This document shows positions 23,028-35,516 of a DNA stretch of 46,353 nt, piece after piece. The stretch is from Flavobacteriaceae bacterium (lineage in GTDB: Bacteria > Bacteroidota > Bacteroidia > Flavobacteriales > Flavobacteriaceae), in the NCBI GenBank assembly GCA_024643425.1, contig JAHEMY010000007.1, positions 1-46,353 of the forward strand, read 5' to 3'. Positions within the stretch are counted from its first letter, which is position 1; every line of letters starts with the position of its first letter. A program made the translations under genes and the position numbers. The notes below the pieces were generated by a model. The model was not told the DNA's origin. It made no database searches and saw nothing but the letters and a program-made list of their open reading frames with translations.

Positions 23028-24074
23028 TTATTCGAAAGAATTCCAACCGCGCGCTACGATAGGTATTTTCGTCTGCGCCCGCGTGATCAAATGAATCCCC
23101 TCCTGCTCTTGGGTCATATGACCAATCACAGTAAGGTTGGGGTTTCCTTTTATTTTAGGATAATCTTCAACTTTTACAGTAAACAATAGTTCGTAATCCT
23201 CCCCCCCGCTTAATGCAATGGTCGTACTATCCATATTAAATTCTTCACAGGTCGAAATAACTTGTGGGTCCAAAGGAATTTTATCTTCAAAAAGTTGGCA
23301 CCCCACCTTAGACGACTTGCACAGGTGAATAATTTCAGAAGACAATCCATCACTTATATCTATCATGGAGGTTGGCTGCACCTCTAAATCTTTTAATAAT
23401 TGGACGATATCTTTCCGAGCTTCCGGTTTTAATTGACGTTCCACCAAATAGCTGTATGGCTCTAAATCGGGCTGTGCATTCGGATTTACCTGAAATACTT
23501 GTTTTTCTCGTTCCAACACCTGTAAGCCGAGATAAGCAGCCCCCAAATCTCCGGAAACTACAAGTAAATCGGTATCTTTTGCTCCGGAACGATAGACCAC
23601 TTCTTTCGGATCAACGGTTCCCAGTGCCGTGATACTAATGATCAACCCCGTGGGTGAGGTGGTGGTATCTCCCCCGATTAAGTCAACCTTGTAAAATTCG
23701 CAGGCCGTCTTAATGCCGGCATACAATTCATCGATGGCTTCCACAGGAAATCGATTCGAAACGGCAATAGAAACCGTTATTTGATTGGCTTTTGCGTTCA
23801 TGGCAAACACATCGCTTAAATTAACCATCACCGCTTTATACCCCAAATGCTTTAAAGGCATATAACCCAAATCAAAATGCACTCCTTCCACCAGCATGTC
23901 CGTAGTAACCACCGTCAATACGCTAGCGTCTCCCGATATCACCGCGGCATCATCGCCTACGCCAAGGACCGTCGATTTGTGATGCAGTTTAATTTTTTGG
24001 GTGAGGTGTTCAATAAGTCCAAATTCACCTAAATCGGAAATATTTGTTTTCTCGCTATTTTTATCTTCAAACAT
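23028..24074 (-). CDS. thiL: Thiamine-monophosphate kinase
   Basis: A 348-residue cytoplasmic enzyme that phosphorylates thiamine monophosphate to the cofactor thiamine diphosphate. Family motifs: VLGVGDDAAVI near the N-terminus, TTDMLVEGVHFD, the GGDTTTSP loop, VVSGDLGAAYLG, and SMIDISDGLSSE and LSGGEDYELLF in the C-terminal half. Length is normal. It is a single-gene unit here with a promoter box upstream; no other thiamine gene and no TPP riboswitch was seen nearby. Confidence 0.95.
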   Translation of the reverse strand: MFEDKNSEKTNISDLGEFGLIEHLTQKIKLHHKSTVLGVGDDAAVISGDASVLTVVTTDMLVEGVHFDLGYMPLKHLGYKAVMVNLSDVFAMNAKANQITVSIAVSNRFPVEAIDELYAGIKTACEFYKVDLIGGDTTTSPTGLIISITALGTVDPKEVVYRSGAKDTDLLVVSGDLGAAYLGLQVLEREKQVFQVNPNAQPDLEPYSYLVERQLKPEARKDIVQLLKDLEVQPTSMIDISDGLSSEIIHLCKSSKVGCQLFEDKIPLDPQVISTCEEFNMDSTTIALSGGEDYELLFTVKVEDYPKIKGNPNLTVIGHMTQEQEGIHLITRAQTKIPIVARGWNSFE

Positions 24075-24303: not shown

Positions 24304-26226
24304 ATGTTACGATTAATACTAAGTGTGTTTTTATTAGCACCTTTTGCCCTTATTTCTCAAACTCCATGTGTTGGTGGGATGGCCGATGGCTACCCCTGCG
24401 ATGGATATGATTTGCAATCTCATTTACCCTTATCGGTATTTAATACTTCAGGAGCGAACGATTCTTGGGGATGGACCGATCCTTTAGATGGAAAAGAATA
24501 TGTCCTGATGGGACTAGAAAATGGAACTGCTTTTATCGATATTTCAGACCCGGTAAATCCCTTGTATCTTGGTAAACTTCCTACCCATACCAGCGCAACT
24601 ACTTGGAGAGATGTAAAAGTTTATAATGATTATGCCTTTGTGGTGAGTGAAGCCAGCAACCACGGAATGCAGGTATTCGACCTTACACGATTAAGAAACG
24701 TGGCCAACCCACCCGCAACTTTTACAGAAGATGCTCACTTTGGTGGTTTTGGAAGTGCTCATAATATCGTAATCAATGAGGAAACAGGATATGCTTATGC
24801 TGTAGGAACCTCAAACTTTAGTGGAGGAGCTTATTTTGTAAATATTCAAGATCCCTTGAATCCTGTGGCTGCAGGAGGTTATGCTACCGACGGATACATC
24901 CACGATGCTCAAGTAGTAATTTATGATGGTCCTGACACTGATTATACCGGTCGAGAAATCATGGTAAGCAGCAATGGATCTGAGGAAGTCGTATCTTTTG
25001 TTGATGTGACCGACAAGAATAATCCACAAGGTATTTCAACCATAGGATATCCTAATGCAGGGTATACCCACCAGGGTTGGTTTACAGCCGATAAGAAGTA
25101 TGTTCTTGTAGGTGACGAATTTGACGAAAGTGATTGGGGTTTCAATACAAGAACGGTCGTTTTTGACGTGACTGATCTAGATAATCCTGTACAGCATGTG
25201 GAGTTTTTTGGAACTACCCCGGCCATCGACCACAATGGATATGTGATTGGAGATAGCTATTACCTAGCAAATTATGCCGCAGGATTTAGAAAAATAGACC
25301 TTAGTGATATTGATAATGGCAACTTAGCCGAAGTAGCATATTTCGATACGTTTACGGGAAATAATAATGCCAACTACAATGGTGTATGGAATGTTTATCC
25401 TTACTTCGGTAGTGGAAACATCATGATCAACGACCGAAGTGGTGGATTCTTTTTAGTGAAGTCCTCTGAAATTGATGTTGAAGATCCTGTTGCTGTTTGT
25501 CAAAATTTCACAGCTTCGCTAGGCGCCAATGGCCAAGTAATTATTTCAGGTGATGATATTGATGGTGGGTCTACAGACAACAGTGGTTTTGTTAGTTTTT
25601 CGGTTTCACCAAACACCTTTGACTGTGACGATATTGGAAGCGTAATTTCGGTTACGTTAACAGTTACCGACCCTTCCGGGAATACAGATACATGTACTTC
25701 ACAAGTTACCATTGAAGACACAACCGGTCCGGTATTCGATTGCTATGAAGATGTTGACGTTGAAGTTGATAGTGGTCAGAGTTTTTACACCTTGCCTGAT
25801 TATGTGCTCTTAGGAGATGTAACGGCAACCGACAACTGTACTGCCTCACTTAGCATTAGCCAAGATCCTACAGCTGGAACTCAACTTCCTCTAGGAACTC
25901 ATACAATTTCTTTTGAAGCAACAGATGACGAAGGGAACACCACAACCTGTTCTTTTGAGCTTACCGTGACTGAAGAATTAGGTATCGCAGATGTCTTTAA
26001 ACAAGGACTTGCGATTTACCCAAATCCTGCATCAAGTGAATTAACTATAAATTCAAAATCATTGCCAATTGAATCTATACAGTTGTTCGATATTACAGGA
26101 AAACAATTGCTAGAAATGGGTAATATAAATCAAAACGAGGTATCCCTTAATGTTTCAACGTTATCCCAAGGAATCTATTTCTTAAAATTGAATAATCAAG
26201 TAACTCAAAAAATAATAATCAATTAA
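24304..26226 (+). CDS. Choice-of-anchor B/LVIVD-type surface protein with HYR-like region, T9SS type A
   Basis: A 640-residue secreted protein. After a signal peptide (1 to about 19, ending ALISQ), residues 20-390 form a repeat domain of the choice-of-anchor B/LVIVD type (FIDISDPVNPLYLG, KVYNDYAFVVSE, MQVFDLTRLR), probably a beta-propeller. Seven histidines (H95, H120, H145, H153, H200, H256, H310) are also in the downstream paralogue. Residues about 392-553 hold two HYR/Ig-like units (VTDPSGNTDTC and ATDDEGNTTTC). The final 75 residues are a T9SS type A sorting domain (YPNPASSELTI ... GIYFLKLNN). It is 94 bp from the next gene, with a large hairpin between them. The ligand is unknown. Confidence 0.88.
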   Translation: MLRLILSVFLLAPFALISQTPCVGGMADGYPCDGYDLQSHLPLSVFNTSGANDSWGWTDPLDGKEYVLMGLENGTAFIDISDPVNPLYLGKLPTHTSATTWRDVKVYNDYAFVVSEASNHGMQVFDLTRLRNVANPPATFTEDAHFGGFGSAHNIVINEETGYAYAVGTSNFSGGAYFVNIQDPLNPVAAGGYATDGYIHDAQVVIYDGPDTDYTGREIMVSSNGSEEVVSFVDVTDKNNPQGISTIGYPNAGYTHQGWFTADKKYVLVGDEFDESDWGFNTRTVVFDVTDLDNPVQHVEFFGTTPAIDHNGYVIGDSYYLANYAAGFRKIDLSDIDNGNLAEVAYFDTFTGNNNANYNGVWNVYPYFGSGNIMINDRSGGFFLVKSSEIDVEDPVAVCQNFTASLGANGQVIISGDDIDGGSTDNSGFVSFSVSPNTFDCDDIGSVISVTLTVTDPSGNTDTCTSQVTIEDTTGPVFDCYEDVDVEVDSGQSFYTLPDYVLLGDVTATDNCTASLSISQDPTAGTQLPLGTHTISFEATDDEGNTTTCSFELTVTEELGIADVFKQGLAIYPNPASSELTINSKSLPIESIQLFDITGKQLLEMGNINQNEVSLNVSTLSQGIYFLKLNNQVTQKIIIN

Positions 26227-26246
26227 TCAAACTTTTAAAAGTTAAA

Positions 26247-26292
26247 AACCCTTTGTCGTAAACTATTTAAGTAGCATTTACGTTAAAGGGTT
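26247..26292. terminator. Long hairpin between the two choice-of-anchor B genes
   Basis: A 16-nt arm (26247-26262) pairs with 26277-26292 with only two internal mismatches around a 14-nt loop, and can extend outward with a bulge (26238-26242 with 26294-26298). No T run follows, so full termination is doubtful. It could be an attenuator, RNA-stability element or partial terminator. Confidence 0.6.
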
Positions 26293-26320
26293 ACTTTAAA
26301 TAAAAAATCTACCTAATTAC

Positions 26321-27727
26321 ATGAAAAAAATTACTTCACTTTTAGCCCTTCTTACTAGCATTACGCTATTTGCTCAATCTCCTTGTTCGGGAGGCATCGC
26401 CATAGGATTTCCTTGCGATGGATACGATTTACAAGCCAAGTTATACCTTTGGGATATGGGCGCTAGTGATGGGAATGACTCCTGGGGATGGACCGATCCC
26501 GATAGCGGAAAAGAATACGCCTTAGTTGGCCTAGATAATGGTACTGCATTCATCGACATTTCAGACCCTGTTAATGTGGTTTATTTAGGGAAATTACCTA
26601 CACATACAAGTCCTAGCATTTGGAGAGATATTAAAGTATATAATAATCATGCCTTTATTGTTAGTGAAGCAAATGGTCATGGAATGCAGGTGTTTGATCT
26701 AACCCGCTTGAGAAATGTTGCGAATCCTCCAGTAACTTTTACTGAAGATGCCCATAACGGCGACTTTGGCTCTGCACATAATATTGCCATTAATGAAGAA
26801 ACGGGTTTTGCCTATGTAATTGGTGCCGGTAATCAAAATGGAGGTCCAATTTTCTTTGATTTATCAAACCCATTGAACCCGACCAATGTTGGAGGATACA
26901 GTGGAAGTGGATACTCTCATGACGCACAAATCATCGTATACGACGGACCTGATACCGACTATACAGGAAGAGAAATTTTCTTTGGAAGCAATGAAGACCA
27001 AATAGTAATTGTAGATGTTACCAACAAAAATAATCCTCAATTAATTTCAAGCTTAAGCTATGGAAGTGTTGCCTACACACACCAAGCATGGTTAACGGAA
27101 GACCGAAATTTTATTTTAATTGGAGATGAACTTGATGAATTAGATTTTGGGTTTCAAACGCGTACGATAGTTGCGGATGTTTCAAACTTAGACAACCCTA
27201 CTTTTGGATTCCAGTACTTTGGAAATGTTTCTTCCATCGATCACAATGGTTATGTTGTAGGCGACAAATACTATCTAGCCAATTATAGTGGTGGAATGCG
27301 CGTAATTGATATTAGCGATATTGCCAATGAAAATATGAATGAAATAGGTTATTTCGACACCTACCCACAAAACAATGGTGCAAACTTTGGAGGCACATGG
27401 AATGTATATCCTTTCTTCGAAAGCGGTAATATCGTAATTTCTGGTGAAGGTGGATTTACCTTAGTAAAAGAGTCAACTCTTGGTATTGGCGAAGAAACCT
27501 TAAATGGATTTTCTATGGCTCCAAATCCGGCGACTAACGAAATTACGGTACGTTCTGAAAAATCATCTATTGAAAAACTTACCATCCACAATATGTTAGG
27601 TCAACTTGTGTATGAGAAAGAAATAAATAATTCATTAACGGAAACAATTAATATTTCACAATTAACTTCTGGAATGTATATTGTGACAATCAATAATACA
27701 ACTACCCAACGATTAATGGTGAATTAG
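26321..27727 (+). CDS. Choice-of-anchor B/LVIVD-type surface protein, T9SS type A (short paralogue)
   Basis: A 468-residue paralogue of the preceding protein, aligned nearly without gaps over residues 20-390 and sharing PCDGYDLQ, NDSWGWTDP, GTAFIDISDPVN, KLPTHTS, GMQVFDLTRLRNVANPP, SAHNI and DGPDTDYTGREI. It lacks the HYR-like insert: the repeat domain runs straight into a type A sorting domain (MAPNPATNEITV ... GMYIVTINN). The signal peptide ends about TLFAQ. It begins a tight run with the next three genes (gaps of 12, 30 and 9 bp), probably one transcript. Confidence 0.9.
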   Translation: MKKITSLLALLTSITLFAQSPCSGGIAIGFPCDGYDLQAKLYLWDMGASDGNDSWGWTDPDSGKEYALVGLDNGTAFIDISDPVNVVYLGKLPTHTSPSIWRDIKVYNNHAFIVSEANGHGMQVFDLTRLRNVANPPVTFTEDAHNGDFGSAHNIAINEETGFAYVIGAGNQNGGPIFFDLSNPLNPTNVGGYSGSGYSHDAQIIVYDGPDTDYTGREIFFGSNEDQIVIVDVTNKNNPQLISSLSYGSVAYTHQAWLTEDRNFILIGDELDELDFGFQTRTIVADVSNLDNPTFGFQYFGNVSSIDHNGYVVGDKYYLANYSGGMRVIDISDIANENMNEIGYFDTYPQNNGANFGGTWNVYPFFESGNIVISGEGGFTLVKESTLGIGEETLNGFSMAPNPATNEITVRSEKSSIEKLTIHNMLGQLVYEKEINNSLTETINISQLTSGMYIVTINNTTTQRLMVN

Positions 27728-27739
27728 AAACCTTTTAAA

Positions 27740-29137
27740 ATGCTATTGAAAAAAAGAAATTTAACCTACTTATGTTTTCCAATTTTATTCCTTTTTATCC
27801 TTGTTGGTTGCGGTAAGGACGACGGAAGTCCTATGACCGATGATACCGTAGATGACCCCATTGACGATGGAACATCCGGAAACTTCAACGGAGAATTACA
27901 ATGGCTAAAAACATTTGGAGGAAGTAACATCGATCAAGCGACTGCTATCGTTGAAAGTGCCGACGGAAATTACATCCTTGTAGGTTCTACCTATAGCAAT
28001 GATGGTGATTTAGCCGGACTTAAAACGGGAATGGATAGTGACTTTTGGGTCTTAAAACTATCCAAAGAAGGCGCCGTAATTTGGAATAAAATATATGGTG
28101 GTGAAGACGATGAACTTGCTACCGGAATAACACGAACCAATGATGGAGGCTATGCTATTTCAGGCTACAGCCGAAGCGATAATTGTTTTGTAGGAAGTAA
28201 TGGTGGATTTCATGATTTCTGGATTCTTAAAATCGATGCCAACGGTAATGAAGTTTGGTGTCAAAATTATGGCTACCCAGGAAGTGATCAAGCAACTGCT
28301 ATTTTTGAAACTCAAGAAAACGACCTGTTTGTAACTGGTTTTCTAGATGTGACCGCAAGTGAAGGAGAAGGAAACGAAGGCCGCGGAAACAATGGAACCC
28401 TTCATGGGGTTGGGGAATATTGGAGTATTAAAACCAATAGTTCCGGAGATTTCGATTGGAAGCGCTATTTCGGTGGTTCAAACAACGATCGCAGCTACGA
28501 TGCCATTCAAACCAACGATGGTGGTTTTATGGTAATAGGTGCTTCAGAGAGTGACGATTTTGATATTATCGATTCTAAAGGAAGTTACGACTTTTGGGCC
28601 GTAAAAATAAATGCTGATGGTGCACTCCAATGGACCAAATCTTTTGGAGGCTCTGAAATTGATGTCGCTTACAGCATTACGCCAACGCCCGACGGCAATT
28701 TTTTAATCGCGGGAGACACAAGAAGTTTTGACATGGATGTAACCGAAAATAACGGTAATGCAGATATGTGGTTGATTAAAATAAACCCGAACGGCAATAT
28801 AATCTGGGAAAAGAATTTTGGAGGTTCGGAGTTCGATTCAGCCAAAGATATTATCCCGATTTCCGATGGAAACTACTTAATCACAGGATCCTCTCGAAGC
28901 TCAAATGCTGATGTTTCATCAAACAACGGCCAAAACGATGCCTGGTGCATTGTAGTGAATGGAAATGGTGAAATGGTATTTGAAAAAAACATAGGGGGTT
29001 CTAACTTAGATTTTTCCGAAGCTGCTATCTATACTTCAGATGGCTCAGTGATCATCGTTGGGAATACCGAAAGTAATAATGGGGATATCTCAGAGAACAA
29101 AGGGATTAAAGACTTACTAGTCTATAAATTAAAATAA
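27740..29137 (+). CDS. Propeller-like repeat lipoprotein
   Basis: A 465-residue lipoprotein with lipobox LVGC (Cys 24) followed by GKDDG, an acidic start typical of surface export signals in Bacteroidota. After a linker rich in D and T, six or seven repeats of about 55-60 residues follow. Each has a WxKxFGGSxxDxA-like entry and a DGGYxIxGxSxSxD-like core (LKTFGGSNIDQA, KRYFGGSNNDRS, TKSFGGSEIDVA, EKNFGGSEFDSA, EKNIGGSNLDFS). This suggests a beta-propeller. No catalytic motif is seen. It lies 12 bp after the short choice-of-anchor B gene and 30 bp before mbnP, so it is a member of the same transcript. Confidence 0.85.
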   Translation: MLLKKRNLTYLCFPILFLFILVGCGKDDGSPMTDDTVDDPIDDGTSGNFNGELQWLKTFGGSNIDQATAIVESADGNYILVGSTYSNDGDLAGLKTGMDSDFWVLKLSKEGAVIWNKIYGGEDDELATGITRTNDGGYAISGYSRSDNCFVGSNGGFHDFWILKIDANGNEVWCQNYGYPGSDQATAIFETQENDLFVTGFLDVTASEGEGNEGRGNNGTLHGVGEYWSIKTNSSGDFDWKRYFGGSNNDRSYDAIQTNDGGFMVIGASESDDFDIIDSKGSYDFWAVKINADGALQWTKSFGGSEIDVAYSITPTPDGNFLIAGDTRSFDMDVTENNGNADMWLIKINPNGNIIWEKNFGGSEFDSAKDIIPISDGNYLITGSSRSSNADVSSNNGQNDAWCIVVNGNGEMVFEKNIGGSNLDFSEAAIYTSDGSVIIVGNTESNNGDISENKGIKDLLVYKLK

Positions 29138-29167
29138 TAAAACAACCTTAATCTATTTTTTAACCCA

Positions 29168-30019
29168 ATGAAAAAAATCGCGCTTTTACTATGCGTTTTT
29201 GCAGCCCTAAGCAGCTGTAACAATGATGATGATTCTTCACAACCTATTTCCGGTTGTACAGATGAAAATTCTTTAAACTATGATCCAAATGCTAACACAG
29301 ACGATGGCTCTTGTGAGTATGCAGTTACTCCAAGTTTTTCGTTTACACAGAATTGGGACGGTTCTGATATTCAAAATGCAGATTTTGATGTGACGGAATA
29401 CACCAATGCGCACGGCGAAGTTCTTACGCTTTCAAAACTTGTTTACTTAATTTCAGACATTACTTTTACCAATGCCAATGGAGATGTGTACACGGGTGAC
29501 GATTACAACTTAATTAATGTAAGAGAGGGAGAAAACTTAACCTTTACCCCAAACGTTGCAATACCTGCGGGTGATTATTCGGTTTCTTTTACTTTTGGAT
29601 TCAACGACGAAGACAATGCAGAAGTTTATCAGGATTTGAACTCTGCTGATGGAGGATGGAATGTTCCACTTATACTAGGTGGAGGTTACCACTACATGCG
29701 TATGGAAGGGAAATTTACCAGTGCCATTATCACGCCTACAGAGACCAACTTTCAATTCCACACCATTAGAGCCGCCAACCCAATGGTGAGCCCATTACTT
29801 TTGACAGATACTTCTTTTGTTGTAAATTTAGGTGTGATTACCGTTGGTGAAACCACACAAATCGAAATTGCAATGAACGTTGCAGAATGGTTCAAAAATC
29901 CAAATACTTGGGATTTAAATGTTTTATATACCATGTTAATGCCAAATTATGATGCGCAAATCATGATGAACGAAAATGGTGTAGGTGGTGTATTTAGCCT
30001 TGGAGGCGTAATTGATTAA
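29168..30019 (+). CDS. MbnP-family (copper-binding protein-like) lipoprotein
   Basis: A 283-residue lipoprotein; lipobox ALSSC (Cys 17) followed by NNDDD, an acidic surface-export-like start. Residues 30-51 are a GCTDxxxLNYDPNAxxDDGSCEY spacer frequent in Bacteroidota exported proteins. The main domain, about 55-280, matches the MbnP family: YLISDITF, GDYSVSFTFGFND, GGGYHYMRMEGKF (H175) and FQFHTI (H198). Tryptophans at W63, W164, W241 and W248 are candidates for oxidation. In Methylosinus, MbnP binds copper after MbnH converts a tryptophan to kynurenine. The di-haem partner gene follows after 9 bp. No methanobactin gene is present. Confidence 0.85.
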   Translation: MKKIALLLCVFAALSSCNNDDDSSQPISGCTDENSLNYDPNANTDDGSCEYAVTPSFSFTQNWDGSDIQNADFDVTEYTNAHGEVLTLSKLVYLISDITFTNANGDVYTGDDYNLINVREGENLTFTPNVAIPAGDYSVSFTFGFNDEDNAEVYQDLNSADGGWNVPLILGGGYHYMRMEGKFTSAIITPTETNFQFHTIRAANPMVSPLLLTDTSFVVNLGVITVGETTQIEIAMNVAEWFKNPNTWDLNVLYTMLMPNYDAQIMMNENGVGGVFSLGGVID

Positions 30020-30028
30020 TTTAATAAA

Positions 30029-31090
30029 ATGAAATACGGAATAGCTTTTTGTGTACTCTTGACAACCCTTTTCGCTTGTAAAAGTGAGGATGATGGTCCA
30101 GGGTACACAGCTACTCCTGTTTCTTTAGAAGTTCCTCCTTTATTTGAGGAATATATTCTTCCCCCAGTTATCCCCGGAGAAAACCCGCTCACTGAAGAAG
30201 GTATTGCCCTTGGGAAAAAACTATTTTTCGACCCCATTTTATCTGCCAATAATACCCAAGCTTGCGCCGACTGTCACAGACCAGAAAACGCATTTACCGA
30301 TCCCAGACAATTTAGCTTTGGAATAGATGGATCTGAGGGTACGAGAAATTCTATGCCACTCCATAATTTAGCGTGGAATTACGACCAACACTTTTTTTGG
30401 GATGGCCGTGCCGGTACCCTTGAAGCACAAATCTTCGAGCCGGTAACCAATCCCATAGAAATGGCAAACACCTGGCCAAATGCTGTAGCATCACTTCAAA
30501 ACAATAACAATTATCCATTGCTATTTGAACAAGCCTTTGGATCCTCTACGATTGATTCTACCATGGTGAGTAAAGCCATTGCCCAGTTTCTAAGAACCTT
30601 AGTTTCTGCCAATTCTAAATTTGATAAATACTTACTTGGGGAAACAGATTTAAGCCCTGAGGAAGCAAGGGGTTTGAATATATTCATGGATGAAAGCCGA
30701 GGGGATTGTTTTCACTGTCATGGAAATCCATTAAATCCATTGTGGACCGACAATATTTTTCATAATAATGGCTTAGACGCCTTCCCTCAAGACAAAGGCT
30801 TAGGCAGTATTACAGGAGACCCAAGGGACGACGGGAAGTTTAAGAGCCCATCCTTACGAGACTTGGCATTCACGGCGCCTTACATGCATGATGGCCGTTT
30901 TGAAACCATAGATGAAGTGATTGACCACTACAGTGAGGGACTGGTTTATTCTGAAACTATTGACCCACTCATGAAAAAAGTTGCCGAAGGCGGCGTGCAG
31001 CTTACTCCTCAAGAAAAATCCGATTTGAAAGCCTTTCTACTTTCGCTTTCCGACCCAAGTTTTATCAATAATCCGGATTTTCAGAATTAA
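30029..31090 (+). CDS. Di-haem MbnH/MauG/cytochrome c peroxidase-family lipoprotein
   Basis: A 353-residue lipoprotein (lipobox LFAC, Cys 17, followed by KSEDD) with two c-type haem sites, CADCH at 79-83 and CFHCH at 227-231. The family features FWDGRAGTLEAQ, NPIEMANTWP, FKSPSLRDLA and PYMHDGRFETIDEVIDHY are present. Members reduce peroxide or, as MauG and MbnH, oxidise residues on a partner protein. Position 9 bp after an MbnP-family gene favours the MbnH role, but sequence alone cannot separate it from peroxidase, because I cannot assign the axial ligand of the high-potential haem. Last gene of the run; only a weak hairpin follows. Confidence 0.87.
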   Translation: MKYGIAFCVLLTTLFACKSEDDGPGYTATPVSLEVPPLFEEYILPPVIPGENPLTEEGIALGKKLFFDPILSANNTQACADCHRPENAFTDPRQFSFGIDGSEGTRNSMPLHNLAWNYDQHFFWDGRAGTLEAQIFEPVTNPIEMANTWPNAVASLQNNNNYPLLFEQAFGSSTIDSTMVSKAIAQFLRTLVSANSKFDKYLLGETDLSPEEARGLNIFMDESRGDCFHCHGNPLNPLWTDNIFHNNGLDAFPQDKGLGSITGDPRDDGKFKSPSLRDLAFTAPYMHDGRFETIDEVIDHYSEGLVYSETIDPLMKKVAEGGVQLTPQEKSDLKAFLLSLSDPSFINNPDFQN

Positions 31091-31220: not shown

Positions 31221-31550
31221 ATGATTAAAGTAAGTGATACTGCTAAATCCAAGATTGCTCAACTTATGAGCGAAGAAGGATTTATTCCCGAAACCGACTA
31301 TGTACGGGTGGGTGTGAAGAGTGGTGGCTGTTCAGGCTTGTCTTACGAATTAAAATTTGATAACACCTTACAGCCCGAAGACAAGTTGTTTGAAGACAAT
31401 TTGGTCAAAATCATTGTGGACAAAAAAAGTTTCCTGTATTTGGTCGGAACCGTACTTGAATACAGTGGAGGTTTGAATGGAAAAGGATTTGTATTTAATA
31501 ACCCAAATGCCAACAGAACATGCGGGTGTGGTGAAAGTTTTTCACTGTAA
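31221..31550 (+). CDS. sufA: HesB/IscA-type iron-sulfur assembly protein
   Basis: A 109-residue A-type carrier of iron-sulfur clusters, which accepts clusters from the scaffold and delivers them to target proteins. The three conserved cysteines are present: one in SGGCSG (about residue 37) and two in RTCGCGESF at the C-terminus. It opens the suf operon, 16 bp before sufB. By sequence it could also be called IscA or ErpA; context gives SufA. Confidence 0.92.
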   Translation: MIKVSDTAKSKIAQLMSEEGFIPETDYVRVGVKSGGCSGLSYELKFDNTLQPEDKLFEDNLVKIIVDKKSFLYLVGTVLEYSGGLNGKGFVFNNPNANRTCGCGESFSL

Positions 31551-31566
31551 TAATTACTGAAAAGAA

Positions 31567-33015
31567 ATGGGAAAATTCACAGAAGACGATTTAAAAAAAG
31601 AACTTGAAACCAAGGAATATGAATATGGTTTCTACACCGATATTGAATCGGATACTTTTCCTGTTGGGCTGAACGAAGAAATTGTTCGAGCCATTTCTTT
31701 GAAAAAAGAAGAGCCGGAGTGGATGACCGATTGGCGATTGGAAGCATTCCGTGCTTGGCAACAAATGGAAGAGCCGGAATGGGCCAATGTGACCTATAAA
31801 AAACCGGACTTTCAGAACATTTCTTACTATTCAGCACCAAATAAAAAAGCGAAATACGACAGTTTGGATGAAGTGGACCCGGAACTTCTTGAAACCTTCA
31901 ATAAGCTGGGAATCTCACTAGATGAGCAAAAGAAATTAGCAGGGGTTGCCGTGGATATCGTAATGGATTCTGTTTCGGTTGCTACCACTTTCAAATCTAC
32001 GCTTGCGAAAAAGGGGATTATTTTCTGCTCCATTTCTGAAGCGATAAAAGAACATCCCGAACTCGTTAAAAAATATATGGGCAGTGTCGTTCCTCAAAAA
32101 GATAATTTTTACGCTGCTTTGAATAGTGCCGTTTTTAGTGATGGATCCTTCTGTTATATTCCAAAAGGCGTTCGTTGCCCTATGGAATTATCCACTTACT
32201 TCCGTATTAACCAAGCCGGTACCGGTCAGTTTGAGCGAACCTTAGTAATTGCCGATGAAGGAAGCTATGTGAGTTATTTGGAAGGATGTACCGCTCCGAT
32301 GCGAGATGAGAACCAATTACATGCCGCTGTGGTAGAATTAATTGCATTGGACGATGCTGAAATTAAATACAGTACCGTTCAAAACTGGTATCCCGGCGGA
32401 AAGGATGGGAAAGGTGGTGTTTTCAATTTTGTTACGAAACGTGGAATTTGTGAGAAAAACGCAAAAATTTCATGGACTCAGGTAGAAACCGGGAGTGCCG
32501 TTACTTGGAAATATCCTAGCTGTGTTTTAAAAGGAGATAATTCAATTGGTGAATTCTATTCGATTGCAGTGACCAACAACTACCAGCAAGCCGATACAGG
32601 GACCAAAATGATTCACCTCGGAAAGAATACCCGAAGCACCATTATTTCTAAAGGTATTTCAGCAGGGAAATCTCAAAATAGTTACCGCGGACTCGTGAAA
32701 GTGAGCCCAAGGGCCGAAAATGCAAGAAACTTTTCACAGTGTGATTCTTTGCTTATGGGAAATAATTGTGGCGCACACACCTTCCCTTACATTGAAGCGA
32801 GCAACAAGACTGCAAAAATAGAACACGAAGCGACTACCAGTAAGATTGGAGAAGATCAAATCTTTTATTGCAATCAGCGTGGAATCGACACTGAAAAGGC
32901 CATCGCCCTTATCGTGAATGGATTTAGCAAGGAAGTTCTGAACAAACTTCCCATGGAATTTGCCGTGGAAGCTCAAAAATTACTTGAAATTAGTTTAGAA
33001 GGATCTGTAGGATAA
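31567..33015 (+). CDS. sufB: Fe-S cluster assembly scaffold subunit SufB
   Basis: A 482-residue subunit of the SufBCD complex, on which new clusters are built. Typical segments are [10 protein letters not shown] near the N-terminus, [31 protein letters not shown] (with the family's functional cysteine), [10 protein letters not shown], and [18 protein letters not shown]. Length is normal. In this operon an unrelated lipoprotein gene separates it from sufC. Confidence 0.97.
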
Positions 33016-33027
33016 AATCATTTAACC

Positions 33028-33444
33028 ATGAAAAAAATAACCCTCGTTTTTACCCTATTATGCAGTGTAATGCTGTTGTCGTGTAAAAATTCTGAAGAGA
33101 CAAAAGATGGTGCTCAGGCGACTCCAGCCTTAATAGATGCTGAATTTCCCATGTATTCCGGAGAGTATTTCTATTCTGAAGATGGCGCCGTGCTAAAAGG
33201 GAATTCATTCATCTTTGCAGTGACCCTCGACGAACTGGCAAAAGAATTAGGAGAAATAGTGGCTCCGGTGAAAAGAGAAGAATACGACATGATTCCCGTA
33301 ATCGTGAAAGGTGTTGTGACGAAAAACCCGGCACTTGACCAAGGACAACAAGTTTGGGAACAAATTATTACCATAAAAGAAATTGTATCTGTAGGGAATG
33401 CCCCTGCCGAAGTGGATATAACCATTGATGAATCGAAAAGTTAA
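33028..33444 (+). CDS. Lipoprotein of unknown function inside the suf operon
   Basis: A 138-residue protein with a lipoprotein signal (lipobox LLSC, Cys 19) followed by KNSEETKD, suggesting outer-membrane and maybe surface location. The mature domain includes MYSGEYFYSEDGAVL and DMIPVIVKGVVTKNP ... WEQIITIKEI, a strand-rich pattern compatible with an OB-like fold, but I do not recognise a named family. It is 12 bp after sufB and 2 bp before sufC, so it is co-transcribed with them. Why an exported protein sits here is unclear; a link to iron or oxidative stress in the envelope is only a guess. Confidence 0.8.
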   Translation: MKKITLVFTLLCSVMLLSCKNSEETKDGAQATPALIDAEFPMYSGEYFYSEDGAVLKGNSFIFAVTLDELAKELGEIVAPVKREEYDMIPVIVKGVVTKNPALDQGQQVWEQIITIKEIVSVGNAPAEVDITIDESKS

Positions 33445-33446
33445 TT

Positions 33447-34199
33447 ATGTTACAAATTAAAGATTTACACGCAAGTGTAGAGGAGAAAGATATTTTAAAA
33501 GGAATTAACCTTACCGTGAATCCGGGCGAAGTACACGCCATTATGGGTCCTAACGGTTCGGGAAAAAGCACCTTCGCTTCTGTGATCGCAGGTAAAGATG
33601 AATTTGAGGTAACTAAGGGTGAAATTCTTTTAAATGGTGAAGAAATTCTTGAATTGGATCCGGAAGAAAGAGCTCACAAAGGTATTTTCTTATCTTTTCA
33701 ATATCCAGTGGAAATCCCTGGAGTGACCGTGACCAATTTCATCAAAACAGCCATCAACGAAACACGTAAGGCAAAAGGATTAAAAGACATGCCAGCCGCC
33801 GAAATGCTTAAGATGATTAAAGAGAAAGCAGATCTTTTGGAAATCGATCGTAAATTCCTCTCTCGTTCTCTTAACGAAGGATTTTCAGGTGGTGAGAAAA
33901 AAAGGAATGAAATTTTCCAAATGGCAATGATGGAGCCTAAATTGGCCATCTTAGATGAAACCGATTCTGGATTGGATATCGATGCCCTTAAAGTAGTTGC
34001 CAACGGAGTAAATAAATTGAGAAGTCCAGAAAATGCGGTGGTTTTAATTACGCACTACCAACGACTACTGGATTATATCGTTCCGGATTTTGTGCATGTT
34101 CTGATGAATGGGAAAATCGTTAAATCCGGCACTAAAGAACTTGCCTACGAATTGGAAGAAAAAGGATACGACTGGATTAAAGAAGAAGTAAAAGCCTAA
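33447..34199 (+). CDS. sufC: Fe-S cluster assembly ATPase SufC
   Basis: A 250-residue ABC-type ATPase, cytoplasmic, that drives the SufBCD scaffold. Walker A is GPNGSGKST at 34-42, the ABC signature is FSGGEKKRNE, and Walker B is LAILDETDSGLDID, with the switch histidine in VLITHYQR. Length is typical. It starts 2 bp after the lipoprotein gene and ends 3 bp before sufD. Confidence 0.97.
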   Translation: MLQIKDLHASVEEKDILKGINLTVNPGEVHAIMGPNGSGKSTFASVIAGKDEFEVTKGEILLNGEEILELDPEERAHKGIFLSFQYPVEIPGVTVTNFIKTAINETRKAKGLKDMPAAEMLKMIKEKADLLEIDRKFLSRSLNEGFSGGEKKRNEIFQMAMMEPKLAILDETDSGLDIDALKVVANGVNKLRSPENAVVLITHYQRLLDYIVPDFVHVLMNGKIVKSGTKELAYELEEKGYDWIKEEVKA

Positions 34200-34202
34200 A
34201 GC

Positions 34203-35516
34203 ATGAGCTTAAAAGACAAATTCATATCCTCATTTTTAGCCTTCGAAGATTATTTGGACGACGATTCGCCCATTCACGATCTTCGAAATAAGGCCATCAA
34301 TAATTTTGAACTTAAAGGGTTTCCTTCCAAGAAGGAGGAGGCATGGAAATACACTTCTCTTAAATCGTTGCTTAAAGCCGATTTAAGTCTTTTCCCTAAA
34401 CAGGAAAATGGCGTCGATTTCAAAGAAGTGAAAAAGTATTTCTTGCACGATATCGATACTTACAAAATTGTTTTTGTAGACGGTGTTTACAGCTCTTTCC
34501 TTTCCTCAACCACCCATGAAGGCATGGATGTATGCCTGCTTTCTGCGGCTTTGAGTAAGGACAAATACAAGTCTGTTGTTGAAACTTATTTCAACAAGAT
34601 TGCCAAGGAAGAAAGCATGACTTCCTTAAATACTGCCTTCGCCAAAGAAGGGGCTTATATTTTTATTCCCAAGCATAAAGAGGTTGAGAAACCTGTAGAG
34701 ATTTTGAATTTTTACACAGGTTCAGAAGTGTCTTTAATGTTGCAGCCACGAAATTTAATCGTCGTAGGCGAAAATGCACACATCCAAATTATTGAACGCC
34801 ATCAAAGTTTATCGGAAAATGCGGTGTTAACCAATTCGGTTACCGAAATTTTTGCTGAACAACGTGCCATGGTGGATTACTATAAAATTCAAAACGACCT
34901 GCCTGAGGCTTCTCTTATCGATAATACCTATATCAAACAAGAAAGAGACAGTGTTTGCAGTATACACACCTTTTCTTTCGGAGGGAAACTCACTCGAAAT
35001 AATTTGAATTTTTACCAATACGGTGAACATTGCAATTCGATTCTGAAAGGAATTACGATTCTTGAAGGCAAACAGCATGTAGATCACAATACTCTTGTGC
35101 ATCATATCGCTCCAAATTGTGAAAGTCATCAAGATTATAAGGGGATTTACGACGAAAATTCTATTGGAGTTTTTAACGGTAAAATTCTCGTGGAGAAAGA
35201 TGCACAAAAACTAAATGCCTTTCAACAAAACAACAACATCCTAATTAGTGATAAAGCAACCATCAATTCGAAACCTCAGCTTGAGATTTTTGCCGATGAT
35301 GTGCGCTGTTCGCATGGTTGTACCATTGGACAATTAGACGATGAAGCTTTGTTTTATCTGCGCTCCAGAGGTATTGGACAAAAAGAAGCACAAGCCCTGC
35401 TTATGTATGCTTTTGCCAATAACGTCCTTGAAAGCGTAAAAATTCCTGAATTAAAAAAACGTATTAACAAACTTATTGCTCGAAAAATAGGAGTATCCCT
35501 AGGATTCGATCTTTAA
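34203..35516 (+). CDS. sufD: Fe-S cluster assembly protein SufD
   Basis: A 437-residue partner of SufB and SufC in the scaffold. Recognisable parts are KKEEAWKYTSLKSLL near residue 50, the beta-helical core (HIQIIERHQSL), and the C-terminal DVRCSHGCTIGQLDDEALFYLRSRGI, the family's best-conserved segment. It lies between sufC and sufS with short gaps (3 and 20 bp). Confidence 0.95.
   Translation: MSLKDKFISSFLAFEDYLDDDSPIHDLRNKAINNFELKGFPSKKEEAWKYTSLKSLLKADLSLFPKQENGVDFKEVKKYFLHDIDTYKIVFVDGVYSSFLSSTTHEGMDVCLLSAALSKDKYKSVVETYFNKIAKEESMTSLNTAFAKEGAYIFIPKHKEVEKPVEILNFYTGSEVSLMLQPRNLIVVGENAHIQIIERHQSLSENAVLTNSVTEIFAEQRAMVDYYKIQNDLPEASLIDNTYIKQERDSVCSIHTFSFGGKLTRNNLNFYQYGEHCNSILKGITILEGKQHVDHNTLVHHIAPNCESHQDYKGIYDENSIGVFNGKILVEKDAQKLNAFQQNNNILISDKATINSKPQLEIFADDVRCSHGCTIGQLDDEALFYLRSRGIGQKEAQALLMYAFANNVLESVKIPELKKRINKLIARKIGVSLGFDL

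Follow-up and report, generated by a model that had tools for sequence, protein, structure and literature searches.

The Flavobacteriaceae bacterium assembly GCA_024643425.1 encodes, on contig JAHEMY010000007.1, a group of four envelope genes that combines an MbnP/MbnH pair with surface propellers. The stretch analysed (positions 1 to 46,353 of the contig; 46,353 nucleotides) is called the window here. The group comprises a choice-of-anchor B propeller gene (cabB2), a gene for a propeller-like lipoprotein, mbnP and mbnH, all on the same strand and head to tail, with intergenic gaps of 12, 30 and 9 bp. This gene order recurs across the family, the predicted folds match known ones, a set of residues is conserved, and one genomic slot is used by two MbnPH lineages. 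MbnP and MbnH are known mainly through methanobactin, and a distinct version of the pair is common in Flavobacteriaceae, in an apparent operon with surface propellers. We tentatively favour the reading, whose chances we place somewhat below even, that MbnP as a metal-binding lipoprotein and MbnH as a di-haem oxidase serve the surface propellers. The genes, whose coordinates, order and gaps had been given exactly in a preliminary description of this DNA, are:

26321..27727, + strand, cabB2, choice-of-anchor B propeller with a type IX secretion system (T9SS) type A signal (TIGR04312, TIGR04183)
27740..29137, + strand, propeller-like lipoprotein (delta-60/SBBP repeats)
29168..30019, + strand, class B MbnP lipoprotein (PF20243)
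30029..31090, + strand, MbnH-type di-haem oxidase lipoprotein (CCP_MauG)

The MbnP family PF20243 has 109 matches in 98 of the 199 sampled genomes of the same family. We retrieved 100 of these 109 loci with flanks of about 7 kb, or less where the contig ended sooner, and labelled neighbouring genes with profiles grown from the window proteins. The cabB-propeller-mbnP-mbnH order is present in 63 of the 100 loci (64 with the window), including Altibacter, Marinirhabdus, Aureisphaera, Halomarinibacterium and Flaviramulus. The other 37 carry mbnP and mbnH without propellers, one of them (L101) because its contig ends inside mbnP. A further four-gene locus (L263), outside the count of 63, was found in the phylum sample. 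Judged from these locus counts, the association exceeds chance. The preliminary description had named a lack of recurrence as grounds for abandoning the idea of a module, and the neighbourhood does recur.

The 101 MbnPs, the window included, split into class A (41) and class B (60), and the window MbnP belongs to class B. The four genes are co-directional in all retrieved class B loci, with median gaps of 9, 4 and 5 bp at the junctions (n = 59 loci), and the propeller-mbnP junction touches or overlaps (gap <=0) in 16 of 58. cabB and the propeller gene precede 58 of the 59 retrieved class B pairs; the 59th is L101, whose contig end leaves only the SUF side visible. In the 36 class A MbnP loci outside the slot between the propeller gene and sufA (the SUF slot), neither cabB nor the propeller gene is found within about 7 kb.

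Trees of MbnP and MbnH (130 pairs; FastTree, midpoint-rooted) give the same two clades. Class B joins sequences of Latescibacterota and Gemmatimonadota plus locus L196, with support of 0.995 (MbnP) and 0.975 (MbnH). Class A pairs occupy the SUF slot in five loci, and each of the two trees places these in one clade (0.999) nested within class A. A quick tree of SufB from 78 loci implies at least 7 changes in presence or absence of the pair, compared with a mean of 15.7 and a minimum of 11 in 200 shuffles, and it does not group all four of the class A slot loci that it contains.

The window MbnP scores 94.6 bits against PF20243 (cut-off 27), is the only match in its genome and has the lipobox LSSC with Cys17 by pattern match. 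Six chains of 7L6G, the Methylosinus MbnP, take Foldseek ranks 1-6 for its AlphaFold2 model (mean predicted local distance difference test score, pLDDT, 88.6), and the next match has a probability of 0.16. VIA-align superimposes the model on 7L6G with Z 16.4 (218 aligned, root-mean-square deviation 3.7), the next entry reaching Z 5.2, which leaves 7L6G as the sole confident structural match. A sequence profile of this MbnP found nothing useful in the PDB, and the same holds for the class A MbnP of L130. The MbnP assignment made from the letters is thereby borne out at the level of fold.

In Methylosinus, MbnH reportedly converts a tryptophan of MbnP, the first of a WxW motif, into kynurenine, and MbnP is said to bind copper. 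Methylosinus MbnP (7L6G) aligns weakly (E 0.018) to a distant WxW relative and shows W-N-W there. The window MbnP is unmatched at E 0.001 by TIGR04052 ('MbnP_like_WxW'), as is every other protein of its genome. Three class A relatives also fall under the TIGR04052 cut-off of 140 (47.9-55.1 bits), so it is the WxW motif and not the cut-off that separates the classes. The residues of interest in the window MbnP are:

29657..29665, + strand, W164-N-V166, remnant of WxW (W and W in 41/41 class A)
29690..29698, + strand, H175 and M177, class-B-specific candidate metal ligands, from conservation
29759..29761, + strand, H198, histidine common to both classes (60/60 class B, 41/41 class A)
29939..29941, + strand, M258, candidate Met ligand (60/60 class B)

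H175 and W248 are likewise present in all 60 class B proteins, W241 in 55 and M177 in 51. Class B carries G-G-G-Y-H after a short insertion, and class A (n = 41) has no His at position 175. Residue 164 is W in 54 and F in 6 class B proteins, and residue 166 is V in 49, which lack the complete WxW pair, and W in 11; the six proteins with Phe at 164 have Val at 166, so that no Trp of the motif is left. How W164 lines up with the first Trp of WxW is uncertain, with a possible shift of two residues: the Latescibacterota Trp falls at window position 166 in one alignment and at 164 in another. Among 79 class B proteins of Flavobacteriaceae, W164 is W in 73 and F in 6, W241 is kept in 74, W248 in 79 and W63 in 69. 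Class B proteins from outside the family lack both W63 and W248 (10/10 each).

The kynurenine chemistry suggested earlier for this locus therefore does not simply carry over, because the window MbnP is without the WxW pair and 6 of the 60 class B proteins have neither Trp. Kynurenine formation at W164 is possible in the window MbnP, though it would not be general in class B. The copper-site residues proposed at the same time fare unevenly: H175 and H198 never vary within class B, but W63 and W248 are missing from class B elsewhere and W164 gives way to Phe in some members. Residues 29-50, near the start of MbnP, form a short repeat rich in Asp, CTDENSLNYDPNANTDDGSCEY. It is seen again in other proteins of Bacteroidota and weakly matches structures of macrophage-expressed gene 1 protein (E 0.0022).

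The window MbnH is the sole CCP_MauG match in the genome (190.8 bits, cut-off 25.6), which agrees with the MbnH-type partner first described. Its lipobox, LFAC with Cys17, was read by eye, the pattern scan having missed it. Three features stand out:

30263..30277, + strand, haem-binding CADCH (C79/C82/H83 in 99% of 101)
30707..30721, + strand, haem-binding CFHCH (C227/C230/H231 in 100% of 101)
30929..30931, + strand, Tyr301, aligned with the Met of 1IQC, a classical di-haem peroxidase position

At the distal position, Tyr in place of Met is a MauG-type trait, and Tyr301 is found in 60/60 class B and 32/41 class A proteins. The best PDB match is 6E1C ('Di-heme enzyme', E 1.6e-55), which we take to be Methylosinus MbnH; bacterial di-haem peroxidases are matched as well. 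The window protein scores 253.6 against the NCBIfam MbnH model TIGR04039, under its cut-off of 362.85, as do four other MbnHs (229.6, 198.5 and 226.3 in class A, 245.8 in L171). The MbnB family PF05114 has no match in the genome, which is 96% complete, consistent with the earlier view that the module is not linked to methanobactin; MbnA and MbnC were not searched for. Nine class A loci (L033, L034, L035, L036, L038, L040, L042, L043 and L045) have Phe or Leu for Tyr301 in MbnH together with a WxW-bearing MbnP, and in all nine a TonB-receptor-like gene lies before mbnP.

CabB2 scores 530.0 bits against TIGR04312 (cut-off 100) and 51.8 bits against the T9SS type A sorting domain TIGR04183 (cut-off 23). 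The propeller lipoprotein has a LVGC lipobox with Cys24 by pattern match, and its SBBP and delta-60 repeats score under the cut-offs of those models. These signals agree with three lipoproteins and one T9SS type A cargo at the envelope or cell surface, as originally read. The AlphaFold2 model of CabB2 (pLDDT 84.6) is a propeller, with propeller matches at Z about 30, and appears to have seven blades when the repeats are counted by eye. The phosphotriesterase 5HRM of Sphingobium TCM1, an enzyme with a binuclear metal site, is the top Foldseek match (E 6.6e-11; VIA Z 30.5, 335 aligned, 16% identity). This Z is level with many WD40 propellers, so only the propeller fold is supported. A CabB profile searched against the PDB at E 0.01 gave no 5HRM match and only T9SS tails. 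Among 92 cabB with mbnP nearby, conservation of H153, H200, H254 and H308 of CabB is 98-100%; in the model these residues lie at or beside the starts of strands 154-158, 201-206, 253-258 and 307-313, in four successive repeats. They could sit at the mouth of the central channel of the propeller. The genome also encodes a third choice-of-anchor B gene (G000:C191:29626-30780) inside a 1070-residue open frame.

We propose that cabB2, the propeller gene, mbnP and mbnH form one envelope operon that is probably read as a single transcript. MbnP, as an outer-membrane lipoprotein, would bind a soft metal, most likely Cu(I), through H198, H175 and Met177/Met258. Copper is the likeliest metal because studied proteins of this kind bind it, reportedly including Methylosinus MbnP. 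CorA and MopE are further copper-binding examples (PMC3912023). MbnH, a MauG-type enzyme with Tyr in place of Met, would oxidise a Trp of MbnP, either W164 or W241/W248; alternatively, it might hold the metal site of MbnP in a working redox state. The pair would most likely act on the choice-of-anchor B propeller exported by the T9SS, loading or maturing a metal site there, metal presumably passing in that direction. It looks as if mbnPH is an accessory of the propellers and not the reverse, since cabB and the propeller gene also stand without the pair and the slot can be filled by class A pairs instead. The proposal draws on the recurrence of the gene order, the tight junctions, the use of one slot by two MbnPH lineages, the MbnP fold, the invariant ligand-type residues of MbnP, the conserved His of CabB and an analogy with the methanethiol oxidase genes. 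The family offers a natural experiment, because at this locus some relatives have the Trp, some lack it and others lack both mbnP and mbnH. These relatives make it testable what MbnH oxidises in the absence of WxW and what choice-of-anchor B proteins are for, and open a possible, so far unrecognised surface module for metal handling or protein oxidation to testing.

sufA starts 130 bp downstream of mbnH and cabB1, encoding a longer propeller, ends 94 bp upstream of cabB2; the preliminary description had mentioned neither. The flanking features are:

23028..24074, - strand, thiL-like AIR synthase (Pfam AIRS), left border of the conserved block
24304..26226, + strand, cabB1, longer choice-of-anchor B propeller (TIGR04312 532 bits, HYR domain, Por_Secre_tail, T9SS type A signal)
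26227..26320, + strand, intergenic hairpin between cabB1 and cabB2 (minimum free energy -18.9 kcal/mol, z -3.77, 1/200 shuffles equally stable)
31221..35516, + strand, sufA, putative sufB, small lipoprotein, putative sufC and sufD, right border (first gene Pfam Fe-S_biosyn)

The name thiL is our presumption, and the names sufB, sufC and sufD come from reading the proteins by eye. Relatives of sufA/sufB follow every four-gene locus but L061, a short contig (63 of 64), and thiL is near or precedes in 57 of the 64, including the window.

Several observations weigh against the proposal that the pair serves the propellers. Of 20 cabB loci chosen for lacking an adjacent MbnP, 17 still show cabB and the propeller gene in the SUF block, and synteny from thiL to SUF is kept whether or not mbnPH is present; some of the co-occurrence of mbnPH and cabB therefore reflects position. 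The conserved CabB residues are equally conserved without mbnPH (the four His in 95-100% of 20 cabB without mbnP nearby). A phylum-wide search yielded 20 chosen cabB loci, of which 19 lie outside the family; these have no mbnP, mbnH or propeller, although some are limited by contig ends. Together with the cabB-propeller loci without mbnPH, they indicate that cabB is not generally dependent on the pair. None of the eleven Latescibacterota and Gemmatimonadota class B loci shows cabB, and class B mbnPH without cabB also occurs in L196 and in another Bacteroidota family. In L128, a class A slot locus, mbnH lies 4 kb from mbnP. The block also revealed no known copper gene. Where the SUF block lacks mbnP (17 loci), the propeller gene and sufA are separated by 45-352 bp (14 loci) or 1.2-1.5 kb (three loci), and mbnH is likewise missing from the block (L139 has a distant relative elsewhere in the stretch). 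This missing mbnH and the closed gap speak for the proposal, suggesting that mbnP and mbnH are gained or lost as a unit. The remaining three chosen loci, L135, L144 and L150, do not show the SUF block; L150 is a contig of 3 kb. cabB exceeds the cut-off in 105 of the 199 genomes, so many have cabB without mbnPH. Within Flavobacteriaceae, these counts indicate that the class B pair goes with the propellers, which do not need the pair. The link between propellers and MbnPH suggested earlier is thus upheld as recurrent in the family, but it is one-sided.

These observations also fit an independent copper- or metal-scavenging pair that occupies a stable slot upstream of SUF while the propellers do other work, an explanation that we consider somewhat unlikely. 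The synteny of the thiL-SUF block speaks for it, as do class B pairs without cabB elsewhere, one of them (L286, the only class B among 20 out-of-family MbnP loci read) directly upstream of a TonB-receptor-like gene. The few-base gaps and overlaps at the propeller-mbnP junction point instead to one transcript, no retrieved class B pair (n = 59) turned up away from the block (L101 showing its SUF side only), and another MbnPH lineage has also come to occupy this slot. It is improbable that MbnH is a peroxide-scavenging di-haem peroxidase guarding the envelope or SUF function, with MbnP as electron donor or anchor. Such peroxidases are among its PDB matches and SUF genes follow nearly all four-gene loci, but the invariant Tyr301 of class B replaces the classical Met, 6E1C is the closest solved relative, and SUF proximity also holds without mbnPH. 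For that last reason, and since thiL is syntenic too, we discarded the argument that nearness to SUF proves an iron-sulphur role.

We give least credence to MbnH acting on the propeller itself by oxidising or cross-linking the W-G-W of CabB or a further Trp of that protein, a modification of the kind that has been proposed for methanethiol oxidase and its MauG. W-G-W is present in 91 of the 92 cabB with mbnP nearby (the remaining row has a gap) and W101 in all 92, and there is a published case of a mauG-like gene next to the gene of a copper enzyme from a different family (PMC5739008). W-G-W is nonetheless kept in 20/20 cabB without mbnP nearby, so MbnH is not needed to explain it, and on conservation grounds we discarded this motif as a specific MbnH target. 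A broader speculation, which we regard as unlikely, is that class B has dropped or is dropping the WxW kynurenine chemistry while its MauG-type partner stays intact. The enzyme would then have a new substrate, either another MbnP Trp or the T9SS-exported propeller, and the four genes would constitute a new surface metallo-oxidase maturation system.

Among known systems, MbnP/MbnH of Methylosinus trichosporium resembles the window in being an adjacent pair with the same MbnP fold and a di-haem enzyme with two CxxCH motifs. The window differs in sequence (13% identity), in the absence of an MbnB-family gene from its genome, in the propeller genes in front, in the reduction of WxW to WxV and in the invariant, class-B-specific His175. 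The class A MbnPH of Flavobacteriaceae is the same type of pair, with WxW in 41/41 and a position outside the SUF slot in 36/41. CorA/CorB and MopE/SACCP of methanotrophs also pair a surface copper protein with a di-haem partner and a kynurenine site (PMC3912023). A 2013 survey reports MbnP as not markedly similar to these proteins (PMC3621798), and the likeness drawn here is by description only. The same survey notes MbnPH pairs beyond methanobactin producers, and close MbnP relatives that were, as of 2013, without data linking them to copper (PMC3621798).

SBP56, the methanethiol oxidase family, is a propeller. In the mtoX-SCO1/senC-mauG arrangement, this copper enzyme is encoded with metal carrier and MauG-like genes, by which it is thought to be matured (PMC5739008). 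The proposed window operon resembles it in placing an enzyme-type gene beside MauG-like and metal-carrier-type genes; the protein families are different, however, and no SCO1 was identified in the window block. A search of the open-access literature for choice-of-anchor B proteins by name, or for a cabB-propeller-mbnPH operon, found nothing.

The hairpin between cabB1 and cabB2 (AACCCTTT...AAAGGGTT) is possibly a terminator or processing site, perhaps splitting two transcripts or trimming one. Scans for the Bacteroidota -7 promoter pattern (46 found, 52.9 expected), sigma-70 promoters (30 against 24.5) and terminators (5 against 5.9) were uninformative, and an Rfam scan gave no match.

Class A pairs outside the SUF slot (n = 36) have their own neighbours, named here from reading the protein sequences by eye. 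An outer-membrane-barrel-like gene follows mbnH in 23, a TonB-receptor-like gene precedes mbnP in nine, another gene follows mbnH in four, and a small Cys-bearing membrane protein precedes in 32. Nine sampled genomes carry two or three MbnP matches, one contig-split case excluded. The eleven Latescibacterota and Gemmatimonadota loci (L171-L181) encode class B mbnP; mbnH is seen in nine and two end just after mbnP. In the pairs examined from these metagenome-assembled genomes an HU-like gene follows, and in L177 an outer-membrane-like protein containing a stretch rich in His is encoded before the pair. Two MbnH-like genes occur in the distant Bacteroidota MbnP loci L274, L280, L281, L287, L288 and L292, and also in L277, where one gene lies between them.

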